From Comamonadaceae bacterium (lineage in GTDB: Bacteria; Pseudomonadota; Gammaproteobacteria; Burkholderiales; Burkholderiaceae_C), in NCBI GenBank assembly GCA_947448735.1, contig CANFOS010000007.1:1-64000 (forward strand): a stretch of DNA of 64,000 bases, in the 5' to 3' direction. Numbering within the stretch: the first letter of the stretch is position 1; the number at the start of each line of letters is the position of its first letter. The notes below the pieces were generated by a model. That model did not search any database and was not told where the DNA came from. It saw only the letters and a list, made by a program, of their open reading frames with translations. This document shows positions 48,043 through 62,613 of this stretch, one piece after another. Both the position numbers and the translations under genes were made by a program.

Positions 48043-49572
48043 TTAATGGCTAAGGGTTTCTAAAGTGAGGGCTGACGCAGGATGAGCGTCGCGCAAACGG
48101 GCCATCTTGTAGCGCAGGGTGCGCGGACTGATGCCAAGCTTTTGAGCCGCTTCGATCCGGCTGTCCGAGCTTTCAAGGGCGGTTCGTATCAAATGCTGCT
48201 CGCTGTGCTTGACAGCGGCTTGCAGCGGTTTGCTGGAGCTCAGTGCTTCGCCGCTTGGCACCGACAGCTCTGGGCTGTGGTCAGTGGCTGCGTGGCTTGG
48301 CAGCAGTTCGGCCCAGCCAGAGGCCACCGATCCGGCGCCCAGCTGTAGCTCGCTGGTGTCGTCAAACATCAGGTGTTGCGTGTCAATTTTTTGGTCAGGG
48401 CACAGCACCATGGCGCGTTGCACCACGTTTTCGAGCTCGCGCACATTGCCCGGCCAGGCATAAGCCAGCAGTTGGGCCTGCGCGGCGGCACTGACCTGCC
48501 AACCCGGGGCAGGGCTGACGCCGCTCGGCTGGTAGCGCGCCAGCAGCCGTGAGACCAGCGGGAAAATGTCGCCCTTGCGCTCGGTCAGCGCTGGAATACG
48601 CAGCTTGAAAGTGCTCAGCCGGAAGTACAAATCTTCCCGAAACTCGCGTCGCGCGATGGCCTGACGCAAGTCTTTGTTGGTGGCGGCGATCACCCGCAGC
48701 GACAGCGAAATGCTGCGTTCGCCGCCCAGTCGGGTCAGGCTGCGTTCTTGCAATACCCGCAGCAGCTTGGCCTGCAAGGGCAGGGCGAGCTCAGCAATTT
48801 CGTCTAAAAACAAGGTTCCGCCCTGAGCCTGCTCAAACAAGCCCCGGTGTTCTTTAAGAGCGCCCGTGAAAGCGCCCTTTTCGTGTCCAAACAACATGTC
48901 CTCGATCATGTGCTCAGGCATGGCGGCGCAGTTCAGGCCAATAAAAGGGCCAGCAGCAGCGGGCGACGACTCGTGCAACACCCGCGCCAACACTTCTTTG
49001 CCAGAGCCCGTCGGGCCCTCTACCAACACGGTCACATCGGCCTGGGCCACCCTTTGGGCCAGCGCCAGCAAATTGCGGCTGACCGGGTCCACATACACCA
49101 CACTGCGGACGGCGGCTTCAGGCTCGGCCCGAGCGGCTGGGTTGCTTGCCAGCTTGGCGTGGCGAGCCGGCTCGGTGCTTTTGGCGTCGTTGGGCTGGCT
49201 GCTGCTGGTGGCACAGCTCAGGGCCGACGCCCAGCTTGTGGCGGTCCAGTCGTCTGCGGCCAAAACATGGCAGGCACCGTGACGGATCGCGCTGACCGCC
49301 AGCTCCAGGTGGCGCCGTTCTACCCGGCAAATGACCGGCAGGCTTGGAGCCGCTTGCATCATCTCCAGGCTGTCAACCAGCAACGAGACATCGCTGCCCA
49401 GTCCTAATACCAGCACCGCGGCGCGCTCTTGCGCCAGCTCGGCTTGCAGCTCATCCATTGTGCGAACCACACCAACCGACAGGCCCGCCTGCGCCAGCTG
49501 CGCCTGCTCATTCGGCGCGAGCGGGTGAAAGGGGTCCAACCACACAAGGTGGAGAGGGGCTGTCGTAGGCAT
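48043..49572 (-). CDS. Sigma-54-dependent flagellar activator (FleQ/FlrC-like)
   Basis: 509 residues. The N-terminal 130 are a degenerate receiver without a clear phospho-acceptor Asp. Residues 165-400 are the AAA+ domain with GPTGSGKE Walker A and GAFTGA, which contacts sigma-54. The C-terminal Fis-type helix-turn-helix is in RIEAAQKLGISPRTLRYKMARL. It sits upstream of fliE in the same direction and has its own sigma-54 promoter at 49621-49636. Its 5' end and promoter are duplicated at 57624-58043. Confidence 0.92.
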   Translation of the reverse strand: MPTTAPLHLVWLDPFHPLAPNEQAQLAQAGLSVGVVRTMDELQAELAQERAAVLVLGLGSDVSLLVDSLEMMQAAPSLPVICRVERRHLELAVSAIRHGACHVLAADDWTATSWASALSCATSSSQPNDAKSTEPARHAKLASNPAARAEPEAAVRSVVYVDPVSRNLLALAQRVAQADVTVLVEGPTGSGKEVLARVLHESSPAAAGPFIGLNCAAMPEHMIEDMLFGHEKGAFTGALKEHRGLFEQAQGGTLFLDEIAELALPLQAKLLRVLQERSLTRLGGERSISLSLRVIAATNKDLRQAIARREFREDLYFRLSTFKLRIPALTERKGDIFPLVSRLLARYQPSGVSPAPGWQVSAAAQAQLLAYAWPGNVRELENVVQRAMVLCPDQKIDTQHLMFDDTSELQLGAGSVASGWAELLPSHAATDHSPELSVPSGEALSSSKPLQAAVKHSEQHLIRTALESSDSRIEAAQKLGISPRTLRYKMARLRDAHPASALTLETLSH

Positions 49573-49717
49573 GTTGAAGTAGTCGGTAGGTGTCGGTAAA
49601 GCGTCAGATGTACCGTAATCAGCAAAGACCGTGCCACACCATTTGTTTGCTTTGCTGCAAACGCGCTACCCGCCTCAGGGCCCCTGGGGTTAGCGTGCAG
49701 TGTTGGCGTGACGCTGC
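49325..49717. repeat. Direct repeat, intact copy (activator 5' end plus promoter)
   Basis: About 390 bp covering the first ~80 codons of the activator gene and its upstream region, repeated in the same orientation at 57624-58043 with roughly one difference in ten (by eye). The two copies bracket the AT-rich six-gene island. Confidence 0.8.
49621..49636 (-). promoter_or_regulatory. Sigma-54 promoter of the activator gene
   Basis: On the - strand TGGCACG-GTCT-TTGCT is a perfect match to the -24/-12 consensus. The predicted start near 49610 gives a 38-base leader before ATG 49572. Confidence 0.85.
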
Positions 49718-49924: not shown

Positions 49925-51199
49925 CTAAATATTCTTGAGTTGATATATTCTAATGAGAACGATAGCGATTCCGGCCATTAAAAGAGGCCATTGTATAGGA
50001 ACAAAATTTATCCAGAGTTCTAATGAAAATCCAATGATTGCTAAACTTAAAACTTGAATAATTCTTCGAAAAATATTGAATTTACTGGTTGCAAAAGGCA
50101 AGGTAAAAAGGAGTCCGAGCAAAAGAACAAGTGTTCCGATTGCAATAGAAAGGGTGTATGAAGTAACCTGAATTCGGTAAGCGACATAGAAGGCATCGAT
50201 CAATGTAAATCCTGATGCTATTATGTATATGCTTAAAATAAATTTTAATATAAATGAACTGCGTTTTATGGTTGTCTTGGGTGATATATTATTTTTATCG
50301 AATGAAATATTTTTTGATGGCGAAGGCTGTGAAATAGGAATAACGACTTCTTTATTTATATTATAAATAGTCGAAGTCTTTGAAAATGTCGATTTGACTA
50401 TTGGTCGCGGTGTTTCCTGATTGCAATTACTATTGATCCAACTGCTCGTCGTTTCCAGGCTGTACTTGGCTTGCGCATCAATATTTTGAGAAAGCATTCT
50501 GTGTGCAAGGTTAGCAAGTTCATATTTTTTATTTTCTTGTAAGCAAGACATTTGAGTGCACTGAATCAACATATTGCCAAGGCTGTGAGAAATTACACAC
50601 CATGGTTGTAAAATATTGTCCACCACCAAGTTCGAACTCCAATCAGACTTGTAAATGGCCATTGGGATTTCCATTTTAAAATCATATTTTTCAGGCTCAA
50701 GGAGTTCATTTCTTTTGAAAAATTGTTGCCAATCTCGCTTGATGGCCTCATATAAAATCGGGTGCTGCTGCCTGTTATCTGGCAACATAAAAAGAGGTTT
50801 TTCAAGTGGAAGTCGCTTTGAGACAGCTAAACTGAAGTCTATTAAAAATACTTCAATATAATTAGAATTTAATGCCTGCTTAACCACAAAGTTGCGAAGA
50901 GCAAGATCGAGATGCCAAATATTTAATTTTGCTAAGTTATCTACAATTTTTAAAGACTGCTGAAGCGCATCGAAAGCCAGTGACTGCCCTTGTACAGAAG
51001 CAGGTAGTTCTTTCAACCATTCCATTAAATTGACGCCTGCATGCGCCATTTCAATGTATCTCTCTTTTTTGTTGTTCGAATGCACTTCTGGAACTGAAGC
51101 GTTTAATTGATTCAACAAATCGAGAAATTGATACTCCCTAGATTGTGCATATTCGCCACCTGCACTGTCGGGAAATTCTTTTCTGTAGGTATTGGTCAA
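49925..51199 (-). CDS. Divergent Ser/Thr protein kinase-like membrane protein
   Basis: 424 residues, likely TTG start at 51199 with GAGG upstream. Kinase landmarks: YRKEF (5-9) as the beta-3 lysine, YIEMAHAGVNLMEWL (48-62) as hinge, catalytic loop HLDLALRN (96-103), and metal loop IDFSLA (120-125) where DFG would be. The glycine-rich loop is absent because the protein begins at beta 3. The last 110 residues contain about four membrane helices. So the kinase would sit at the inner membrane facing the cytoplasm; activity is uncertain. It is in the same frame as the PP2C gene with one TGA and three codons between, and is the last gene of the six-gene island operon. Confidence 0.68.
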   Translation of the reverse strand: MTNTYRKEFPDSAGGEYAQSREYQFLDLLNQLNASVPEVHSNNKKERYIEMAHAGVNLMEWLKELPASVQGQSLAFDALQQSLKIVDNLAKLNIWHLDLALRNFVVKQALNSNYIEVFLIDFSLAVSKRLPLEKPLFMLPDNRQQHPILYEAIKRDWQQFFKRNELLEPEKYDFKMEIPMAIYKSDWSSNLVVDNILQPWCVISHSLGNMLIQCTQMSCLQENKKYELANLAHRMLSQNIDAQAKYSLETTSSWINSNCNQETPRPIVKSTFSKTSTIYNINKEVVIPISQPSPSKNISFDKNNISPKTTIKRSSFILKFILSIYIIASGFTLIDAFYVAYRIQVTSYTLSIAIGTLVLLLGLLFTLPFATSKFNIFRRIIQVLSLAIIGFSLELWINFVPIQWPLLMAGIAIVLIRIYQLKNI

Positions 51200-51208
51200 A
51201 ATACAACC

Positions 51209-51880
51209 TCAGATGAATTTAAGCCAAATCATTGCTACGCTTGTGTCATCCAGGCAACCAGATTTTTGAGCATCGATGGCAAGTGAATTGCATAGATAGG
51301 CCAGATCAGCTTGGCTTGGCTCGTTTCTTCCAAGCATTGCAAGGCGGCTTTTAAGTTTTTCTTCAGATGTTTTGAGACCAGGCCCATCAGACATCAGAAT
51401 GGCACAGTAAAGTCCTTTGGGGTCGTGGTGACGAACATGTAATTTTTGACAAACTTCAGAGCCTACAAGTTGTGTAGGATGTCCATTTTCATCAAGGTCG
51501 CGGGGCATGGTTTCAACGCATTTCCATGGTGCAAAACCACCCCATGATTTTTGAAATAACCAAAGGAAACTGTCTCCAATGGAGGCCAATTCGAGCTCTT
51601 GATGACTTGCTTTAACTCGCAAAAGGGTGCTGCCCGTTTCAGGAAACTTTTCACACATTTCATCATGCCGTGTCATGAGTTGATCTGACAAAGACCCAGG
51701 CTCATCCATTGCCATGACTTGACTTAACCAGTCTGCTGCCAGCCCACTGCCAGGACAACTGTTGGCGCCATCGCATAGTGTGAAAATATTTAAATTCTCA
51801 TTGGCACCAAAGGCATCAAATCCTTTGCTATCACTTGCGTTGACGTTCAGCGCACAAGCGTAAACACATCTCAAACTCAT
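51209..51880 (-). CDS. PP2C-family protein phosphatase
   Basis: 223 residues, a minimal PP2C. Metal-binding and core motifs are in order: DAFGANENL (22-30), TLCDGAN (34-40), GSTLL (83-87), ASIGDS (99-104), MSDGPG in the second half, and LDDTSVAM at about 211-218. These are the Mn/Mg-ligand aspartates of PP2C. It would remove phosphate from Ser/Thr of the operon products, opposing the kinase. The start overlaps the FHA gene stop by 4 bp. Confidence 0.88.
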   Translation of the reverse strand: MSLRCVYACALNVNASDSKGFDAFGANENLNIFTLCDGANSCPGSGLAADWLSQVMAMDEPGSLSDQLMTRHDEMCEKFPETGSTLLRVKASHQELELASIGDSFLWLFQKSWGGFAPWKCVETMPRDLDENGHPTQLVGSEVCQKLHVRHHDPKGLYCAILMSDGPGLKTSEEKLKSRLAMLGRNEPSQADLAYLCNSLAIDAQKSGCLDDTSVAMIWLKFI

Positions 51881-52923
51881 GCGACAGCTTTCGGTCTTGG
51901 CGTTCCTTCGTGATCTTGTGGACTTGCATCTTCCAAAAGTATTTGAATACTTGCATATTCTGCATGAGTACCTAAAGGATTAATTTGCGCCGCGAAATCC
52001 GAAGTTACTCCTGTACGAAAATTTACAGATTCTTTGTGTTTTAATGGATATAGCTTAAGTTTTTCTAAAATCAAACCATCTTCACGCATACAGCTTAAGG
52101 ATGCGCTTTCTGGAAGATAGTAATAAACCTGACCCATAATTTCAAGGATAATAAGTTGTCTTCTTGAGACGTAAGTTGAATTTACTTTGAATGGACTAAA
52201 GCCGAATTGGTTGCTTAAGGGAGTCGGCTCTTTTCCAAGGAGTACTGGTAATTTAACGAATTCTTTTCGATTGCCCAGTGCATCATTGACCTGAATCTCC
52301 ACCATAATTTCAGAATTTTTATATTTTGAATTGGCTCGATTGGGTATTTCAGGCTGTGAAAATTTTTGATGAGCGGTGGTTGATGAAGTGGATAAAGCCT
52401 TGCCAAAGCGACTTGACGTCACTTCTTTTTTCAATGGCCCACTGAGAGTCGCCACAACCTCGAAAGAAATCCGGCGACCTTTTAACGAAATTTGGAAGCC
52501 TTCTTCACTCGTTAAGCTTTCCAATGAATCTGTTCCCAATTGAACTGTAGCTTCAAAGTCAATTGGCACACGAACAGAGCTACCGCGTGAGGATCGATAC
52601 TCTCGTTGTATAATTTGTTGAAAGAATTTCTTTCTAAATTCAATGTCTACTGATTCATGTGTAGATAGAAACTCTTCAAATTTCTTAGCTACTTCTCTGT
52701 CTTTTGGTGAAATTACTAAACTATCTAGCAGGAAGTAACTTTCCTCTAAGACCGATTTTATGTACCGTGTTTCACGGTCTTCGATAGCTTGTTTTACAGC
52801 TTGCGCAGAAACACTTTTTAGTTCCAGAAGAATAGAGTCGACAAATTCATCGGTTTGTCGTGTTTTAAATTTCTCTATATTTGGCTTAGAGATATTGCCT
52901 TTGAAGAAGTCTATTAAACTCAT
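51877..52923 (-). CDS. FHA-like domain protein
   Basis: 348 residues. The N-terminal 110 are helical, beginning SLIDFFKGN; the middle is a probable beta domain. Residues 220-310 look like an FHA fold: VKLPVLLGKE in place of the usual strand with RIG, and YVSRRQLIILEI (251-262) in place of the SRxH motif, with Gln where His is expected. FHA domains bind phosphothreonine, so it could link kinase and cell-wall enzymes, but ligand residues are only partly kept. It overlaps the PP2C gene by 4 bp and follows the 91-residue ORF by 11 bp. Confidence 0.65.
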   Translation of the reverse strand: MSLIDFFKGNISKPNIEKFKTRQTDEFVDSILLELKSVSAQAVKQAIEDRETRYIKSVLEESYFLLDSLVISPKDREVAKKFEEFLSTHESVDIEFRKKFFQQIIQREYRSSRGSSVRVPIDFEATVQLGTDSLESLTSEEGFQISLKGRRISFEVVATLSGPLKKEVTSSRFGKALSTSSTTAHQKFSQPEIPNRANSKYKNSEIMVEIQVNDALGNRKEFVKLPVLLGKEPTPLSNQFGFSPFKVNSTYVSRRQLIILEIMGQVYYYLPESASLSCMREDGLILEKLKLYPLKHKESVNFRTGVTSDFAAQINPLGTHAEYASIQILLEDASPQDHEGTPRPKAVA

Positions 52924-52934
52924 GATTACACCTT

Positions 52935-53210
52935 TTATCCTATTTTAATTTCAAAACTGTTGCTGTCATGAACCTTGATAGTTAACCTATTTTCAAGATT
53001 AAAGTAAAGTGGTGACAGGGTGTCAAATATCAGCTCTTGAAACGATGATGATGACACCGCCTGAAAAACCGATTCAGGGATTATTCCGATTAATTTTTTA
53101 TGTTTTCGTAATAATTTTCTAATTTCTAATGAAAATGCGAGTAGCTGAACCGCTGGCTGGCTTTCCTGGTCAAATGAAAATGATGAAATTATTTTTTCAT
53201 CCCCCATCAT
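52935..53210 (-). CDS. Small unknown protein of the island, 91 aa
   Basis: Soluble, mixed alpha/beta prediction with no cysteine, signal or membrane helix. It overlaps the PBP stop by 4 bp and has the same AT-rich codon use as its neighbours, which supports it as a real gene. No family recognised. Its place between the cell-wall enzymes and the FHA protein suggests an adaptor, but this is a guess. Confidence 0.6.
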   Translation of the reverse strand: MMGDEKIISSFSFDQESQPAVQLLAFSLEIRKLLRKHKKLIGIIPESVFQAVSSSSFQELIFDTLSPLYFNLENRLTIKVHDSNSFEIKIG

Positions 53211-55105
53211 TTTTTATCTCCTTTGACTGACAGTTCTGAAGCCAAATGCATGGCCAGTTCACTTGCAACATGAACACTGTTAACTGCCGCTTTTGGGTAC
53301 GCAACAATTCCAATGGATAATTTTCGACCATCAGAAGCGAGTTCAGAATTCGTCATCCATTTGTTCAGTTGCGCTACATCAATGATGCCCGTGAATAAAG
53401 TTACCCCGCTGAAACCGCGATCTTTTTGACTGACTGTGCCTGTCTTGGCCCATACGCCGCAGTCCTCAGAGCATGGGCGTTTAAATTCACGTTGAAAAGC
53501 ACCAGAAACCGTACCAGGGCCACTCCAGCCAGTCTCTGCAGGCTCGACCACTTTGTGCATCCCAATCAAAACCGTCTGAGCGGCTTTGCGCAAAGCTGCA
53601 GTAGGCGCTGAGCCTTCTTTAGAGCCATTCAATTGTTTAATCAAGCTTGGCCGAACAAATTTTTGGCCTTGTGCTGTTCGGTAAATTTGTGCTGACAGGT
53701 GCGCTAAACCAAGTGCACTTGTGCGCGAATCACCTGCACCTATTGATGATTGGACAGCAAGTGCTGTATTGAAATATGCGACAGATCCAGGTGACGTCCT
53801 TTTGCCTTGTCTTATTTCATCGTACTCTTTCCAGCTAAGCATCTTTCCAGTCTTCGAATTTGAGTCTGTTATCTTTATTTTTCCGATAAATCCAGGAAGA
53901 AACATGGATTCCGAATCGCTAAATAAGCTTAAGCGCCCACATTGAATATCATTGTTTGGGCAGTCATGTTTCCAATTCAATAAATTAGCAACGGCCTTGA
54001 TTTTTTTTGGATGTTGGCAGTCGTCCGATTGACCATCACAGATTGCCTGTTTCTCCCACCATTCGTTGCGCTTGCTCACAAATGAGTCTATTTGGCCAGA
54101 TGTTTTGATTTGCCTCTGGATCATGAGTTGATCTATGTTTCCATTCTCAGCCAAAACCATCGCGTGCAAAAGTTTTGCAGTAGATGCTGGCGGTGTTTCG
54201 ATGAGAAGTGCACCTAAGTTGCCGTATCCTTTAAATTTCTCACAAGGTCCTGACCAGCACAAGGTTGATAAAATATCCCCTGATTTTGTGTCAATAATCA
54301 CCACCGATACATGCTTAAGAGCCGGTAATTTTTGGATGTTATTGCAGTTCTCAGAATTATTCAAACATTTCTCTAAATTATCTAGTTTGCCTTGTAATAT
54401 CGGTTCCAAAGTCAATAATAGTTTATTTTTATCTATTTTATTCAATGTTTCACTTGTCGCGTTAGCTAAAAGAATTTTGCTGAATTCAATTGTTTTTTTC
54501 ATGCCGGAATTAGCTAAGAATTCTGGTGTGCTAAGGTCTAAATCTTCGAGACGACACTGCACTGGATTGCCAACGGCTAAACCCATATTTTCAATGTTCT
54601 GATAATAAATACAGGGTAATTTTCTGTTCCATGAAACTCTTTCTGTCAAAGCCTCCTCAAAGAAAGTGCTATTGTTTTTAATTTTGGCGTTATCTCTATT
54701 AAGCGAATTTATTTTAGATAAGGCCTGAATATTTTCTATCCATTCACTACAAGACAAGTTAAAGTTGATTTTTTGTTGAATTTTATTAAGAAGATTATCA
54801 GCGCTTTCCGAATTCAATGAGTAGGCATCCATCATGCGAATTCTCAGAATGGCAAGGCCACGATCGTTACAAGGAAGCGATTCTAGAATCGGTTTTTTTG
54901 CGATTTCTATCGGATTTGATTCATGTTGAGTTGCTTCACTCATCATTTTCAATTGATATATTTTTCTGGTAGGTTTAAATACAGAGGTCTCATTTGGTGA
55001 TGATGAGGCTTGATCAAACCATAAAATAGTTGCAGCTAAAAGGACGAAAAGCCATAAAGCAAGCCAGATAAGTCGAATTAATAGTTCACGTGAATAGTGA
55101 TTCAT
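53207..55105 (-). CDS. Class B penicillin-binding protein-like transpeptidase
   Basis: 632 residues. One N-terminal membrane helix (11-30), a periplasmic N-domain of about 230 residues, then a transpeptidase domain with the active-site STAK (308-311) and KTGT (554-557). The central SxN motif is not obvious by eye. SSIGAGDSRTSALGLAHLS (453-471) matches the loop before the C-terminal part in FtsI/PbpA enzymes. It has at least a dozen cysteines in the periplasmic part, unusual for a PBP. It should crosslink peptidoglycan with the SEDS partner encoded just upstream (4-bp overlap). Confidence 0.85.
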   Translation of the reverse strand: MNHYSRELLIRLIWLALWLFVLLAATILWFDQASSSPNETSVFKPTRKIYQLKMMSEATQHESNPIEIAKKPILESLPCNDRGLAILRIRMMDAYSLNSESADNLLNKIQQKINFNLSCSEWIENIQALSKINSLNRDNAKIKNNSTFFEEALTERVSWNRKLPCIYYQNIENMGLAVGNPVQCRLEDLDLSTPEFLANSGMKKTIEFSKILLANATSETLNKIDKNKLLLTLEPILQGKLDNLEKCLNNSENCNNIQKLPALKHVSVVIIDTKSGDILSTLCWSGPCEKFKGYGNLGALLIETPPASTAKLLHAMVLAENGNIDQLMIQRQIKTSGQIDSFVSKRNEWWEKQAICDGQSDDCQHPKKIKAVANLLNWKHDCPNNDIQCGRLSLFSDSESMFLPGFIGKIKITDSNSKTGKMLSWKEYDEIRQGKRTSPGSVAYFNTALAVQSSIGAGDSRTSALGLAHLSAQIYRTAQGQKFVRPSLIKQLNGSKEGSAPTAALRKAAQTVLIGMHKVVEPAETGWSGPGTVSGAFQREFKRPCSEDCGVWAKTGTVSQKDRGFSGVTLFTGIIDVAQLNKWMTNSELASDGRKLSIGIVAYPKAAVNSVHVASELAMHLASELSVKGDKK

Positions 55106-57021
55106 GACAACTCTTTAATTCGTTCGTTCCAGATTAAAACCAATGCAATTGCACATGTAGGGGCCAACATGGCAGACAGTCCAATACTGAGCAGTGGTGT
55201 TCCCAGTCCAGTTAATGGGATTAGTCGCCAATTTCCAAAAAATGTGACAACCGTTTGAAATAAGCTGGCAATAAAAAGAAAGAAGGCTGTCGTTGCTAAA
55301 AATCGATTACTACCACTCCCAGCTAGAAATCTCCAGCAAGCAAGTGACGCCATCATTAAAAAGAAAAGAATGAGGAAGATGAAGAAAAACTTTGTTAAGT
55401 GAGGGCCCCATAGGCCGTTGATCAAGGTTGGGACATAGTCACTGAGGACCTGTAGAGGCAAACAAGTTCCTTCTTGACTGCACCATTCAATTCGACCGAC
55501 TCCAAACCCGGATGGTTTAGACGCTTCTGTGAAGGCGATAAGTCGAGCAAAATCACTGACAGAAGCTGTCATGGGGTCAAGCATCAGCTGGATCCGACTT
55601 TGGACTTTCTCGGTTTGGCTAATCAATGCGCCCATCAACCCCATGGCCGATAAAGAGAAAACTGCAGGTTTCGCACCAAACACCAAGAAAAGGGTGGTTA
55701 TCAGCATCAGAGCAGCGATCAAAGCCCCTCCAAGATCTTTAAATCTTATTGAAACAACTGTGAGGACGATAAATCCAAAGGCCGTAAAATTTAAAAGTGG
55801 TGTTGATATGTGGCCAAGAACCTGTCGATTAGCACTTAGTGAATTGTCGCTTGTATCCGACTTTGAGAGGAAAAGTTTTATCCCTCTTTTTAAAACTTCG
55901 GGTGCAAATTTTTTTACCAAATGTAATATGCGGCCTTGATCGGTCATTAAACTTGCGGCCAATACTGCCAATCCTATCTTAAGTGTTTCAGCGCCTAATG
56001 CAGGGCTTTGTAGTCCATAGGCTGTAAAAACGAGAATCGCGACAAGCCATATGCTTAATATTTGATATTTTAAAATGATGCTTGTTAATTTATGAAGCCA
56101 TGGCTTAAAGATCAGAATTGCTGCAAGAAGAAAGTATCCTAAAAATTGAATTTCAAATTGCCTGTTGAGCTGATTACCCAACGGATTGAGAGAGTAGTAA
56201 ATATTATTTTGACCAAATAACATTGCTGCATCTGCTGCGATGGTTAGTCCCAGGGTTGATAGACAGAGGTATGTGCCAATACAAATCAAGCCAGTCCATT
56301 GCGCCCTCCAATAAGCAATTAAAAGCACACTTGCAGAGCACAGGAGAACTAGTATGGGTAGAAAATTGAATATGTTCTCCTGTTCTTCTCCGCGCTTCAT
56401 GAGCTTTTCTGAGCTGTCATTCAACCGTGCAATGTCCCATCTTTTTTGCTTGAATTGATCTTTTGCACTGTCATAGCTCGAGCCATTAAGTAACAATAAC
56501 CACTGGAATGTTTCTTGATACGAATTGACATTTTCTTGATTGGAAATTTTTAGTTGAAAATTTTCTGAAGCTTCAATTTTTGTGTTCATTGATGAAATCA
56601 AGCTTGCCAGAATTGAACGATCTTTTGCCTTGACCTCGATTTCTGATCTGATTTTCTTATACCATTCCAAATTTTCGCTGGCTTGTCTTTGTGCCAACAA
56701 AAGTGTTTGGTCGGCACTGTCTGACTTCATTAATTTCAAGTTCTCAATGGCTAGTGCTGTCCGACAATCCACAAGCTGACTTGGCTGCCCAGTCCATTTC
56801 TCGCAAAAATCCTTTGCGCTCATTGTCGGATCAGGCCTAGATTTGAAATTTTGACTATCTATGACATATTTGATTCCAATCACATTGCTTTGGATGGCGG
56901 TTGGAATTTTTTGAATCAGATAAAGCTGCAATCCCAAGACTGAAAAAGCAAATAAAATAGGCCATAGAAGACCTATTTTTATATAATTATTATTTGACCT
57001 ATCCGAAACATGAATATTCAT
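55102..57021 (-). CDS. SEDS-family peptidoglycan glycosyltransferase (FtsW/RodA-like) with large N-terminal extension
   Basis: 639 residues, versus about 400 for FtsW/RodA. One membrane helix (15-35) is followed by about 180 extracytoplasmic residues, then a polytopic core from about 218. In the core, FKDLGGAL (427-434) carries the SEDS catalytic Asp (D429 by position), RIQLMLDP follows, and PLTGLGTPLLSIG near the end matches PLTGxxxPFxSxG. It polymerises lipid II. It is the first gene of the six-gene leftward operon and is coupled to the PBP, the usual SEDS-bPBP pair. Confidence 0.85.
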   Translation of the reverse strand: MNIHVSDRSNNNYIKIGLLWPILFAFSVLGLQLYLIQKIPTAIQSNVIGIKYVIDSQNFKSRPDPTMSAKDFCEKWTGQPSQLVDCRTALAIENLKLMKSDSADQTLLLAQRQASENLEWYKKIRSEIEVKAKDRSILASLISSMNTKIEASENFQLKISNQENVNSYQETFQWLLLLNGSSYDSAKDQFKQKRWDIARLNDSSEKLMKRGEEQENIFNFLPILVLLCSASVLLIAYWRAQWTGLICIGTYLCLSTLGLTIAADAAMLFGQNNIYYSLNPLGNQLNRQFEIQFLGYFLLAAILIFKPWLHKLTSIILKYQILSIWLVAILVFTAYGLQSPALGAETLKIGLAVLAASLMTDQGRILHLVKKFAPEVLKRGIKLFLSKSDTSDNSLSANRQVLGHISTPLLNFTAFGFIVLTVVSIRFKDLGGALIAALMLITTLFLVFGAKPAVFSLSAMGLMGALISQTEKVQSRIQLMLDPMTASVSDFARLIAFTEASKPSGFGVGRIEWCSQEGTCLPLQVLSDYVPTLINGLWGPHLTKFFFIFLILFFLMMASLACWRFLAGSGSNRFLATTAFFLFIASLFQTVVTFFGNWRLIPLTGLGTPLLSIGLSAMLAPTCAIALVLIWNERIKELS

Positions 57022-57294: not shown

Positions 57295-57640
57295 TGCTGT
57301 TTCATCGTCCCTGAAAAATTCACTTTCAGCACATCACCCAGTTCATCGAACTGGAGTTAGTCGGTCTGACAGTCAAGATCTGCCGTCACTTGCGCAGCAA
57401 ATCGGTGAAATTGGTCAAACCCGCTGCCTGCAACTCCCGCAAAAAATGCCTATTCCTTTTTTGATGGTCATTCGCAACAACCGGCGGATGTTGTCGCTCG
57501 CAGCGCACAGCACCTCGTGCCGACTGTCGCCTTCTGAGCCCCTTGAGGTGGCGTCGATTCATTCGGTGGTCTGCTTTCAAGTGGCCAATGAACGGCTCAA
57601 TGCCTTCTTCGCCCACCAGCTTGCGGCACTTGACGGGCTG
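57295..57640 (-). mobile_element. Remnant of an IS5-type insertion sequence (3' end)
   Basis: On the - strand, GIEPFIGHLKADHRMNRRHLKG is the C-terminal signature of IS5-family transposases. After LKG the frame shifts, and the continuation in the next frame is GDSRHEVLCAASDNIRRLLR, the expected family tail. The sequence GAATTTTTCAGGGACGATGAA near 57308-57330 resembles an IS end. The 5' part is missing, so it is inactive. Confidence 0.7.
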
Positions 57641-57901
57641 GCTTGGCGACTCCTCCATCAGCTCCAGGCTGTCAACCAGCAAGGAGACATCGCTATCGCT
57701 GCCCAGTCCCAATACCAGCACCAGTACCAGTACCAGTACCAGTACCGCGGCACGCTCTTTCGCCAGTTCGGTTTGCAGCTCATCCATTGTGCGAACCACG
57801 CCAACCGACAGCCCCGCCTGCGCCAGCTGCGCCTGCTCAGTCGGCGCGAGCGGGTGAAAGGGGTCTAACCACACAAGGTGGACAGGGGCTGGCGTCAGCA
57901 T
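57624..57901 (-). pseudogene. Truncated duplicate of the flagellar activator gene (5' fragment)
   Basis: From ATG 57901 the frame matches the first ~75 residues of the activator at 49572 (HLVWLDPFHPLAP, AQAGLSVGVVRTMDEL, SLLVDSLE) and then runs into IS5 transposase sequence at a Pro-Val-x-Cys-Arg junction. The AAA+ and DNA-binding parts are absent, so it is non-functional. An internal repeat has inserted extra Leu-Val pairs. Confidence 0.8.
57714..57746. repeat. Hexanucleotide tandem repeat in the activator fragment
   Basis: About five units of ACCAGY, coding for a Leu-Val run on the - strand. The intact copy has a single unit. It was probably produced by replication slippage after the fragment lost function. 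Confidence 0.85.
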
Positions 57902-58091
57902 GTTGAAGTCATCGGTAGGTGTCGGCAAAGCGTCAGATGCCACATCATTAGCAAAGACCGCGCCACACAAATGGTTTGCTTTGCTGCAGACCTGCTACCC
58001 GGCTAACGGCTCCCGGGGTTAGCATGCGGTGTTAGAGTGACCCCACGAAAGTCGCGCTCTAAGCCCCACCAAGCGCCCAAAATCTCTTCAT

Positions 58092-58840: not shown

Positions 58841-59188
58841 TCAGGAAATCATGAGCAGGGCTTTCATCTTGGCCCTGACGTGCAACATCACGTCCGCCGG
58901 TACGACGGCCTTTTTCTTCGCCTGACGCACTTTCCAATCCAAGGATTTAACTTGATCTGACAACACGGCGCAGTCAACACCGTCAACCTGGGTCACTACC
59001 TCAAACGGGTGGCCTTTGATTTTGGTGGTCATGGGACAGCAAACCATCAGGCCCGTTTTACCGTTGTAACTGGCCGGACTGACCACCAACGCAGGGCGAT
59101 GGCCTGCTTGCTCATGCCCGGCTTGGGGATCAAACGTCAGCCAGACCACGTCACTGGCATCGGGAACATAGCCGCGCGCGGCCATCAC
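58841..59188 (-). CDS. mazF: MazF/PemK-type endoribonuclease toxin
   Basis: 115 residues of the PemK/MazF fold: GDVVW-like DVVWLTFDPQAGHEQAGHRPALVVSP with the conserved RPALV, CCPMTTKIKGHPFEV, and a DQVKSLDW strand. It cuts mRNA at short sequences when free of antitoxin. The start overlaps the antitoxin stop by 4 bp. Confidence 0.92.
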   Translation of the reverse strand: MMAARGYVPDASDVVWLTFDPQAGHEQAGHRPALVVSPASYNGKTGLMVCCPMTTKIKGHPFEVVTQVDGVDCAVLSDQVKSLDWKVRQAKKKAVVPADVMLHVRAKMKALLMIS

Positions 59189-59427
59189 AATGCCTCTTTG
59201 CCAACCGGATTCGCAAAGCTGAATTCGCCGTGCGCGTTATCTGCTGTGATGCCCGCCAGCAGGTTATCCAGGCCATAAGTCACATGTTCTGAGGGCTGGA
59301 TCACAATCCGCCCGCGTGAAACGACCAGCTCCACTTCTTGATCAAGAGAAAAACCAGCTGCTTTCAATGCCGCGCTGGGCAGACGCAATGCTGGACTATT
59401 GCCCCATTTACGGATGACGGCTTCCAT
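59185..59427 (-). CDS. mazE: MazE/AbrB-type antitoxin
   Basis: The start at ATG 59427 follows AAGGAGG and gives 80 residues: IRKWGNSPALRLPSAAL and VELVVSRGRIVIQP form the swapped-hairpin AbrB DNA-binding domain, followed by a flexible toxin-binding tail. The longer frame to 59532 has no support. Confidence 0.92.
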   Translation of the reverse strand: MEAVIRKWGNSPALRLPSAALKAAGFSLDQEVELVVSRGRIVIQPSEHVTYGLDNLLAGITADNAHGEFSFANPVGKEAL

Positions 59428-59446
59428 AAAATCCTCCTTAAGCGTA

Positions 59447-59459
59447 TCTACATTGTAGA
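59447..59459. promoter_or_regulatory. MazE operator candidate
   Basis: A perfect inverted repeat TCTACA-T-TGTAGA lies 20 bp upstream of the mazE start, the expected place for autoregulation by MazE or the MazEF complex. Confidence 0.6.
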
Positions 59460-59592
59460 AACTTTCTTCCTGCGGATCAACACCAGCAGCGGGGTTCCTT
59501 GTTTTACCGCCTGCCGATCCTGAGATGATCACGGGTCATGAGCGACATCCCAACCGATTGACTAGGCTAACACCGCCACCCAAGGCACGACT

Positions 59593-59928
59593 TCAGCTAA
59601 CAATCGCCCCCAGACCCTTCTTTTCTATCAGTTGTAAAAGTTTCGCAGCCGCGCCGCTGGGGTGTTTGCCAGAGCTCGGTGACTCCCACTTTTGAACAGC
59701 AGAAACACTGACGTTCAACATGGAGGCGAACACAGATTGGCTCACTTTGGCTTTGTTTACACGAATAGCAGTGACGTTTTCAGCCGTGTAATCAGGCGGA
59801 CTCTGGCAGATCAGTTGCATCTTGGCCATATCTTGTTTGGAAATCAACGCATGGCCTTGCAAAGCCTGCGCCATTTCTAGCATCTCAGAAAGAATACGAT
59901 TTTCCTCAGTTGCTTTTTTGTTTGACAT
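59593..59928 (-). CDS. XRE-family antitoxin (NadS/HigA-like)
   Basis: 111 residues. A C-terminal helix-turn-helix is in KAKVSQSVFASMLNVSVSAVQKWESP, with the N-terminus helical and acidic for toxin binding. Order toxin first, antitoxin second is that of RelE/XRE (HigBA-like) modules. It overlaps the toxin end by 23 bp. Confidence 0.88.
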   Translation of the reverse strand: MSNKKATEENRILSEMLEMAQALQGHALISKQDMAKMQLICQSPPDYTAENVTAIRVNKAKVSQSVFASMLNVSVSAVQKWESPSSGKHPSGAAAKLLQLIEKKGLGAIVS

Positions 59929-60295
59929 TACAAATCTCCTTCAAGATGTCAGTTGCCACCAGTCCATCGAGTTTTTCGATGTCCACACTTTCAAGTGCAT
60001 GACTGATGATTTTTGCGGCTTCCACTTCTTTGGTGGTGAAATCCGACCCGGGTGAATTTTTCTCGCGCCCGGCGAGAAAGAAGATCGCCGCATTGTGCTT
60101 TTTTGCCACCAGGGTTCGGGTTGATCCACTTTTACCCTGACCCGGAACGGCCACCCGCTTCTTGCACACACCGCCACCCAAGTCGGCTTCATACTGACCT
60201 TGCTCAATCTCGTGCGCAGCTTGGCAAAGAAGATCATCAGCCACCACTTTGCGCGCCCATCGATCAAAGGTCTTGGTCTTAAAGACTCTTTTCAT
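59906..60295 (-). CDS. RelE/ParE-superfamily toxin (PF06296-like)
   Basis: 129 residues: FKTKTFDRWARKVVADD, then DLGGGVCKKRVAVPGQGKSGSTRTL, the family signature with GKSG..RT, and AAIFFLAGREKNS. It is likely a ribosome-dependent mRNase. Autoregulation is expected through the palindrome at 60312-60334. Confidence 0.88.
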   Translation of the reverse strand: MKRVFKTKTFDRWARKVVADDLLCQAAHEIEQGQYEADLGGGVCKKRVAVPGQGKSGSTRTLVAKKHNAAIFFLAGREKNSPGSDFTTKEVEAAKIISHALESVDIEKLDGLVATDILKEICNVKQKSN

Positions 60296-60922: not shown

Positions 60923-60938
60923 TGGCATGATTTTTGCA
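60923..60938 (+). promoter_or_regulatory. Sigma-54 promoter of the LicD-like gene
   Basis: TGGCATG-ATTT-TTGCA matches the -24/-12 consensus at all key bases. The predicted start is near 60949, upstream of GTG 60988 but downstream of the TTG at 60934 that opens the longest frame. Confidence 0.75.
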
Positions 60939-60987
60939 AAAAAATACTTTTGAGCCGTGGCGTCGTAAATATGACAGGAGAATCTAC

Positions 60988-62613
60988 GTGAATACCCGAG
61001 CTGAGGTGGTTAGCGAGCGCGTCCGGATGCTGGGTGTATTGCGTAAGTTGCGCCCATGTATCCGTCAAAATGGTGATGGAATCAATGAAATAGCTGCCGA
61101 GTATGGATTGGAGTTATTGATCTCTGACGCACTGATTGATTTTGCAAGGCGACTGAAAGAAAGCGACAGCGTTATATTTTTAACCACCTTGGCTGTGTAT
61201 AACAAAGCCAATAACCAGCGCCCGCAAATGCTATTGCAGGCTTATCAATCGATAAAAAAAGGAAGTCTGTCTGATGGTATTGCAGGACTTCCTAATAAAA
61301 ATATTCTACGCCAGACAATTAAAAGCTTGGTTGAAGATGAATTTATTTTAAAATCAGAGGCTGCGTCACAAAGGCGTATCGGAACAGGACAAGAATGGGT
61401 GATGGCATTCGAGTTATGCTTAGACCATTCTGCCTTGAAAAGCGCTAGTTATTTATTTAAAGAACATTTTCAACAAAAAAAACAGCCCGACTTTGTCTTG
61501 CTATGCGCAAAAGCATTGATAGAACGTGCCATTGGTATCGGTAAAGGCTCACTCAATAATTGGAATGAATGGATAGAAATTCAATCGATGGTGTACGACG
61601 CACTGCTGAAATTAAAAATACAAGTAGTTGCAGAGAAAATTTCTCTAATAATAAGTGATTATTTTTCTTTCTCTGGTAATTATGTTTCAGCTATTAATTG
61701 GTATGAAAAAATATCAAAAAAATCAGATAACTCAATAATCGCAACATTACAAATAGCAATGTCGAATGGAAAGATGGGGCAGCTAGAAAAATCTATCCCT
61801 TATTTCGACGATTTTCTGACACGATTTAGCAAACAAAGTGATGACTGGATCGATAAAAATTTTATTAATTCAGATGTAGGTGGTCAAAATGATGCTAAGG
61901 CTGATTTTAATACTGGATCAGCAGCTCAAGCACTTATTGATTTGCGAAATATATTGATGCAGTGTAATATCACCCCGTTTCTGGTATCTGGAACATTGTT
62001 AGGATATGCAAGAGATGGCGCGCTTTTGAAGCATGATAAAGATATTGATGTCGGTATTCTGGATAGCCAGGATGTTTATAAAGTGGCTGAAGTACTGAAT
62101 TCTTCGGGACTTTTTAGAGTGAAAACGGAATACCTGAGAATTAATGAAATCTACCAATTTCCCGTCGTTCACAAAAAAACCGCCATGGTTATTGACATAT
62201 TTGTTTTCCACCGAGTTAACGGAAAATATGTCACAGGTGTTCAGGGTATTTATGGTTACACACAGAATTTCGCATTTAGTCCATTTGAAATAAAAACTGT
62301 TGATTTCATGGGTATTAAATTCTCAGTACCGGAAAACCATGAGTTCCATCTGGAAGAAAATTTTGGCAACTGGAGAGTGCCTGATCCAAGTTATATATCG
62401 CATTTGCAATGCCCAGTAACTGTTGATATCGGGGGACTGGTCTACCTGTTGGTTGGCAGAGTCGAATTATTGAACTCCATAATAGGAGGAAAAAAAATAA
62501 AACTAGCTCGCGTTATATCGATATTGAGAGATTTTCAGAATGGACCCTATGCAGTCTCTCCGGAGCTCCTTAATCATGTCGAATCTCGATTTGTTGACAG
62601 CATAAAACTTTAA
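60988..62613 (+). CDS. LicD/fukutin-type phosphotransferase with helical N-terminal domain
   Basis: The GTG at 60988 has AGGAGA seven bases upstream and lies just after the sigma-54 start site, giving 541 residues. Residues ~1-290 are helical and TPR-like (FSGNYVSAINWYEKISKKS, GQLEKSIPYFDDFL). The C-terminal part has the LicD/fukutin nucleotidyltransferase-fold motif FLVSGTLLGYARDGALLKHD followed by KDIDVGI, with the metal-binding DxD. LicD moves phosphocholine; fukutin and FKRP move ribitol phosphate from CDP-ribitol. The next gene makes CDP-ribitol, so ribitol-phosphate transfer is the likely role (inference). Confidence 0.8.
   Translation: MNTRAEVVSERVRMLGVLRKLRPCIRQNGDGINEIAAEYGLELLISDALIDFARRLKESDSVIFLTTLAVYNKANNQRPQMLLQAYQSIKKGSLSDGIAGLPNKNILRQTIKSLVEDEFILKSEAASQRRIGTGQEWVMAFELCLDHSALKSASYLFKEHFQQKKQPDFVLLCAKALIERAIGIGKGSLNNWNEWIEIQSMVYDALLKLKIQVVAEKISLIISDYFSFSGNYVSAINWYEKISKKSDNSIIATLQIAMSNGKMGQLEKSIPYFDDFLTRFSKQSDDWIDKNFINSDVGGQNDAKADFNTGSAAQALIDLRNILMQCNITPFLVSGTLLGYARDGALLKHDKDIDVGILDSQDVYKVAEVLNSSGLFRVKTEYLRINEIYQFPVVHKKTAMVIDIFVFHRVNGKYVTGVQGIYGYTQNFAFSPFEIKTVDFMGIKFSVPENHEFHLEENFGNWRVPDPSYISHLQCPVTVDIGGLVYLLVGRVELLNSIIGGKKIKLARVISILRDFQNGPYAVSPELLNHVESRFVDSIKL

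Follow-up and report, generated by a model that had tools for sequence, protein, structure and literature searches.

The 'window' considered here is a stretch of 64,000 nucleotides, that is, positions 1 to 64,000 of contig CANFOS010000007.1 from the Comamonadaceae bacterium assembly GCA_947448735.1. At positions 49925 to 57021 it contains six open reading frames (ORFs), all on the minus strand, which in order encode a SEDS-type glycosyltransferase, a class B penicillin-binding protein (PBP), a small protein, an FHA protein, a PP2C-type phosphatase, and a kinase-like protein. An initial annotation of this DNA, made from its letters, had described six tightly packed genes of these families, and all six ORFs indeed were found. 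From the SEDS to the kinase gene the junctions are −4, −4, +11, −4, and +9 bases, i.e., three of five are overlaps of 4 bases, with gaps of 11 and 9 bases at the others. The genes are as follows:

55102 to 57021, minus strand: SEDS-type glycosyltransferase, 639 aa (PF01098, E 1.5e-4; profile A2 versus solved structures)
53207 to 55105, minus strand: class B PBP, 632 aa (PF00905, 1.6e-3), with SxxK Ser308 at 54182 to 54184 and KTG Lys554 at 53444 to 53446
52935 to 53210, minus strand: small soluble protein, 91 aa, between the PBP and FHA genes (matched by position)
51877 to 52923, minus strand: FHA protein, 348 aa, with a helical N-terminal part, an FHA domain at about residues 203 to 335, and a C-terminal TPRP tail (Thr341, 51901 to 51903)
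51209 to 51880, minus strand: PP2C-type phosphatase, 223 aa (profile A4)
49925 to 51199, minus strand: divergent membrane kinase-like protein, 424 aa, TTG start (profile A3, N-lobe alignment), with a linker TPRP (Thr263, 50411 to 50413) and three C-terminal hydrophobic segments (hydropathy map)

The set had also been called AT-rich and unlike its host, as is the case: the operon is 39.4% GC versus 57.5% over the first 49.9 kb of the window, and its genes have a third-position GC (GC3) of 0.29 to 0.38 versus 0.73 for the two flagellar-side genes measured. The Pfam matches of the window proteins, that is, the SEDS and transpeptidase matches just given along with one to PP2C_2 (1.2e-3), all fall under their curated cut-offs, and the FHA-like and kinase proteins have no FHA or kinase match in Pfam. 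As Pfam alone is weak here, the family assignments are based instead on relatives, profiles, and fold comparison.

Relatives of this operon, which together are referred to here as the 'module', are found in a minority of genomes. Searching 399 genomes of the family with the window's SEDS protein gave matches in 10 (E 1e-6), and a 12-row SEDS profile identified 7 of 399 genomes of the order (E 1e-20), the window's own genome included in both counts. Beyond the order the profile found that genome alone, both in the class (369 genomes, E 1e-20) and in the phylum (398 genomes, E 1e-15), with profile searches scoring at most two candidates per genome. Named carriers are at least Limnohabitans sp. 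T6-20, Polynucleobacter sp. IMCC 30228, Paenacidovorax caeni, and the Betaproteobacteria metagenome-assembled genomes BP_16 and BP_23; the scan of named genomes yielded, among the matches listed, 16 loci, 11 of these being other SEDS proteins.

Nineteen betaproteobacterial loci were read. These can be described as short type (nine loci; SEDS about 630 to 670 aa), long type (nine loci; complete SEDS proteins of about 800 aa, FHA proteins of about 470 to 520 aa, kinases of up to about 840 aa), and fusion (one locus). All six genes are seen in 16 of the 19, the other three (G271, G392, L029) being cut earlier by contig ends, and among those 16 the kinase runs off its contig in G772, BP_16, and G090. 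Of the 16, 13 have the genes in the window's order and all in one direction; in G748, G542, and G772 the SEDS-PBP-small protein half is divergent instead from the FHA-PP2C-kinase half. The co-occurrence of the six families elsewhere, as the initial annotation had suggested looking for, is therefore found, and as the families recur together in distant genomes the set is more than chance. The six genes, that is, are a genuine, conserved accessory system.

The window's SEDS protein begins with one transmembrane segment (TM1), followed by a loop of about 180 aa and then the SEDS core (hydropathy map). Profile A2, which was built from 12 of the 19 loci as it predates six loci from the order-level search, matches solved structures of RodA (1.8e-6) and FtsW (4e-5). 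The window protein scores 21.3 bits against Pfam's SEDS model, i.e., below the cut-off of 26.4, versus 31.6 bits, above it, for long-type L014. Even though relatives are just 18 to 37% identical to the window protein, Asp528 (55438 to 55440), which we take to be the key residue of the large extracytoplasmic loop, is invariant in all 12 aligned sequences, as are Cys514 and Cys520 just before it. In the PBPs, SxxK and KTGT are present in 17 of 17 aligned members (L029 was left out of 18), with no confident position for SxN in the alignment. The SEDS protein and PBP of Paenacidovorax caeni are a single polypeptide of 1302 aa, and this fusion suggests that the two act together.

The phosphatase profile, A4, matches solved structures of PP2C (4.5e-23) and PstP (5.3e-16), and PP2C_2 is matched at E 0.01 or better by all 16 module phosphatases. 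Asp22, 37, 103, 165, 211, and 212, presumably metal-binding, are invariant across the same number (16/16). To judge by alignment, the SEDS protein, PBP, and phosphatase keep their predicted catalytic residues.

With the kinase the picture is more qualified. Profile A3 (15 rows, with G772 excluded as cut by its contig) matches solved kinases at 3.1e-10, and Lys7, Glu22, Asp98, Asn103, and Asp121, i.e., the beta3 lysine, helix C glutamate, catalytic aspartate, asparagine, and DFG aspartate, are invariant in all 15. The glycine-rich loop of beta1-beta2 is missing, the short type beginning at the beta3 lysine in the N-lobe alignment, and the protein is therefore named here 'kinase-like'. No PASTA domain was matched in Pfam among the module kinases searched. 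An AlphaFold model of the kinase (pLDDT 40) was not used, and a five-sequence kinase alignment (A8) was replaced by a three-sequence one. Separately, the module kinase of Paenacidovorax caeni (L023:15372-17141) carries a C-terminal FGE-sulfatase-like domain (PF03781, 4.8e-8). A reading of the module as a defence system was rejected, PADLOC having returned kinase and PP2C models only (best MkoA, 5.5e-8, with a long-type kinase; PD-T4-6, 3.6e-4, with the window kinase).

An ORF adjoins the PBP gene at the place of the small protein in all 17 loci whose contig extends that far; short and long forms of this protein are paired by position, with no significant score between them. By structure comparison the window's FHA protein is similar to FHA domains, its predicted model, of modest quality, having an FHA-like beta-sandwich fold, as had been anticipated. 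Structures matched include the FHA domain of Bdellovibrio DgcB together with its own phosphorylated N-terminal peptide, GarA, and a chain of the C. glutamicum 2-oxoglutarate dehydrogenase complex. For the FHA protein too, an alignment of five sequences (A7) gave way to one of three. The canonical phosphothreonine-binding core of FHA domains is Ser-x-x-His. Here the window has SRRQ, and among the nine short-type members three have SRRH and the remaining six glutamine. The one long-type FHA protein tested matches FhaB (3.2e-14) better than TagH (3.6e-10), both under cut-off.

What an FHA domain of this sort might bind is suggested by a motif. Among short-type loci, TP[RIQ]P occurs in the C-terminal tail of the FHA protein in nine of nine (0.23 of nine expected) and TPxP occurs between the kinase domain and hydrophobic segments of the kinase, also in nine of nine (0.54 of nine expected), expectations being from composition-preserving shuffles and the windows having been picked after the motif was seen. 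Across the other four short-type proteins TPxP is found in just one PBP and one small protein. Long-type loci have instead a TP motif at the PP2C N-terminus (6/6) and TP[IV]TRI after the kinase domain (5/5 of sufficient length), the latter being lacking from the fusion-type kinase. FHA proteins of the OdhI/GarA/DgcB type bind their own phosphorylated tails, and the module resembles these in combining an FHA domain with a conserved threonine in a poorly conserved tail; it differs in that the tail is C-terminal and its motif is common to the kinase linker. The simplest reading, by analogy with such proteins, is that the TPxP and TP motifs would be kinase sites which are read by the FHA domain. 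For StkP, a phosphorylated juxtamembrane segment is reported (PMC12077195).

The six genes thus probably encode an accessory, phospho-switched SEDS-PBP peptidoglycan synthase. Starting from the gene set, its order and conservation, the catalytic residues, the FHA-like fold, and the motif positions, we infer the biochemical steps, and with them the direction of regulation, as follows. The SEDS protein would polymerise glycan strands, which the class B PBP would crosslink, alongside the housekeeping enzymes, i.e., RodA and FtsW/FtsI. The membrane kinase would phosphorylate the TPxP threonines of its own linker and of the FHA protein's C-terminal tail, with the FHA domain then binding a phosphorylated site either in cis (its own tail) or in trans (the kinase). 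That binding may alter FHA contact with, and gating of, SEDS-PBP, perhaps by way of the FHA protein's N-terminal helices along with the small protein, and the PP2C phosphatase would reset the switch. A periplasmic signal for activation may come from lipoproteins, the genes of which adjoin most short-type relatives.

The role most favoured for the operon is local remodelling of the wall, either at an envelope machine or under envelope stress. The initial annotation had proposed a self-contained, phospho-regulated peptidoglycan synthase for a special structure or condition; the synthase is in keeping with the gene set, catalytic residues, and TPxP positions, and the structure or condition stays at the level of that leading idea. 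More speculatively, the module could represent an undescribed Gram-negative class of phospho-switched peptidoglycan synthases, i.e., a third SEDS-PBP lineage with a kinase/FHA TPxP switch, which builds or reseals wall at envelope-spanning machines such as the type VI secretion system (T6SS) under lipoprotein control, a version of events that we put forward tentatively.

Control of wall synthesis by Ser/Thr kinases is known in Gram-positive bacteria and actinobacteria. A conserved Gram-negative version on its own SEDS branch would, if true, mean that a phosphothreonine switch has been wired onto wall synthesis more than once. The operon also is a compact system in which to ask how a SEDS enzyme might be gated by an FHA protein. 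As had been claimed of it, the six-gene set appears to be new: no description in proteobacteria was found in the open-access literature searched, most subscription journals being outside that scope.

Certain relatives point towards one envelope machine in particular. In G694 and G722 the operon comes after, and is co-oriented with, tssL-tssM-tssA; all that separates them is a small lipoprotein ORF on the opposite strand. The operon there is inside a T6SS cluster that includes TssB, TssC, TssF, TssK, and VgrG. G666 is assigned the same arrangement by likeness of its ORFs to those of G722, as the NCBIfam T6SS models were applied to the proteins of G694 and G722 only. Scores in G694 are 4.3e-72 for TssA, 4.1e-157 for TssF, 1.2e-57 for TssB, and 1.4e-160 for VgrG, and in G722 1.6e-63 for TssK; TssC is present in G694, G722, and G666, and TssM, TssL, and Hcp are below cut-off. 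The location makes the passage of a machine through peptidoglycan, and its resealing, testable.

The module may be viewed, on this basis, as a T6SS accessory, with kinase, PP2C, and FHA protein serving as its threonine phosphorylation pathway, SEDS-PBP opening and resealing peptidoglycan, and T6SS-less copies being relics or re-used. It shares with the known pathway of that name (PpkA, PppA, Fha) the trio of membrane kinase, PP2C, and FHA protein, and no second FHA, PP2C, or kinase gene was recognised in that cluster by eye, from ORF starts. Yet the module also carries SEDS and PBP genes, the three linked genomes belong to a single genus, and 8 of the 18 module genomes tested have no TssC, among them those of Limnohabitans, Polynucleobacter, and Paenacidovorax and the 99.8%-complete genome from which the window comes. 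Within the family, TssC is found in 6 of 10 carriers versus 59 of 196 others, which is not significant (p = 0.076), related carriers moreover not being independent, and inspection by eye of the few kb around five long-type copies (L014, L018, L019, L020, L024) revealed no T6SS gene. A dedicated T6SS accessory therefore seems rather unlikely. In the main text of an A. citrulli T6SS paper (PMC12607579), the terms SEDS, FtsW, and penicillin-binding do not occur.

Other neighbours include lipoproteins. An ORF with a lipobox-like CDQ start (motif search) adjoins eight of nine short-type loci, the window being the exception, with sequence support for likeness among these in two pairs only (Limnohabitans-Polynucleobacter, 7e-8; Limnohabitans-G542, 0.0011). 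The Polynucleobacter copy, in one genome, has LpoB (4e-36) and DUF1425 (1.7e-18) among its divergent neighbours, as recalls LpoB-type outer-membrane activators of peptidoglycan synthases; other short-type loci have a different small lipoprotein-like ORF. With the long type, an upstream gene 'X' of about 245 to 300 aa is seen in six of seven loci with upstream sequence, L024 lacking it. Secreted proteins and lipoproteins also lie divergently beside the Limnohabitans (L022:4592-9743) and Polynucleobacter (L021:5060-9147) modules, each set including a Ser/Ala-rich protein (562 and 318 aa), alike by eye.

The window's genome has FtsW, RodA, FtsI, and an 814-aa PBP of its own, along with a dcw cluster recognised by eye. 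The module resembles RodA-PBP2 and FtsW-FtsI in being a SEDS and class B PBP pair with catalytic residues; it differs in its loop after TM1, in its paired cysteines before the key aspartate, in having its own regulators, and in its separate branch. An extra, very divergent pair besides the host enzymes, on mobile-looking DNA, could be a backup wall synthase for stress or antibiotic tolerance, i.e., active when FtsI or PBP2 is blocked and otherwise held off by the phospho-switch, an idea to which we give a small chance. That the island replaces a lost PBP2 was considered, as the genome lacks a canonical PBP2 over cut-off versus its presence in seven of seven other genomes. This was rejected because contig C20 ends within mreC, the PBP2 gene probably being in an assembly gap.

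Particularly, the module was first described as actinobacterial in style. Clustering of SEDS, class B PBP, FHA, PP2C, and Ser/Thr kinase genes is described (PMC3989709) for the actinobacterial fhaA/fhaB-pstP-rodA-pbpA-pknA-pknB locus, and these same five families are together here. FHA, PP2C, and RodA-like ORFs lie side by side in L027, L031, and L036, and actinobacterial RodA from FHA/PP2C loci is among the next-best matches. The gene order nevertheless is different, there is a single, atypical kinase with no PASTA match in Pfam, and there is an extra conserved small gene. In an unrooted tree of SEDS cores, furthermore, 17 module proteins are on one side of a branch (support 100/99), apart from the genome's own FtsW and RodA, seven actinobacterial-type proteins (99/98), and four Bacillota proteins. 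That tree omits G392 and L029 and includes two canonical proteobacterial SEDS proteins, and given its long branches the deeper order is unsure. As the module SEDS is thereby apart from FtsW, RodA, and actinobacterial RodA, the actinobacterial locus is read as a parallel or analogue rather than as a source, and horizontal acquisition of that locus is very improbable. In L025, L032, L033, and L034, Bacillota SEDS proteins of 691 to 813 aa are present, in every case with an ORF of about 450 aa next in line.

Least credible of all is the idea that unrelated genes have come together by chance, or are in decay, on an AT-rich island. Low Pfam scores and the repeats on either side of the AT-rich DNA might suggest so, but this is contradicted by open frames, conserved catalytic residues, and gene sets recurring across 19 loci.

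Those repeats bear on how the operon came to lie beside flagellar genes:

49325 to 49712, no strand: left direct repeat, spanning the 5' end of the flagellar sigma-54 activator gene and sequence upstream of that gene
57624 to 58041, no strand: right direct repeat, a partial second copy which borders the AT-rich island

The two are identical at 339 of 388 aligned bases (87%), and an ORF at 57386 to 57970 has a stretch resembling the start of the same activator gene. As the AT-rich operon lies between direct repeats, the flagellar neighbourhood, which had been pointed out in the initial annotation, is best read as incidental, i.e., as an insertion site. The SEDS match is absent from all five same-genus genomes sampled; the gene adjoining the island was not found in the five congeners tested for an empty insertion site. 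Plasmids, searched with the PBP only, and viral contigs, searched with the SEDS protein only, gave no match.

By eye, a transposase-like remnant is present at 57300 to 57640, next to the right direct repeat. Further along, two small gene pairs at 58841 to 60295 resemble, also by eye, MazF/MazE and HigB/HigA toxin-antitoxin modules, and a LicD-family gene (PF04991, 3.7e-5) at 60934 to 62613 lies within a second AT-rich stretch.
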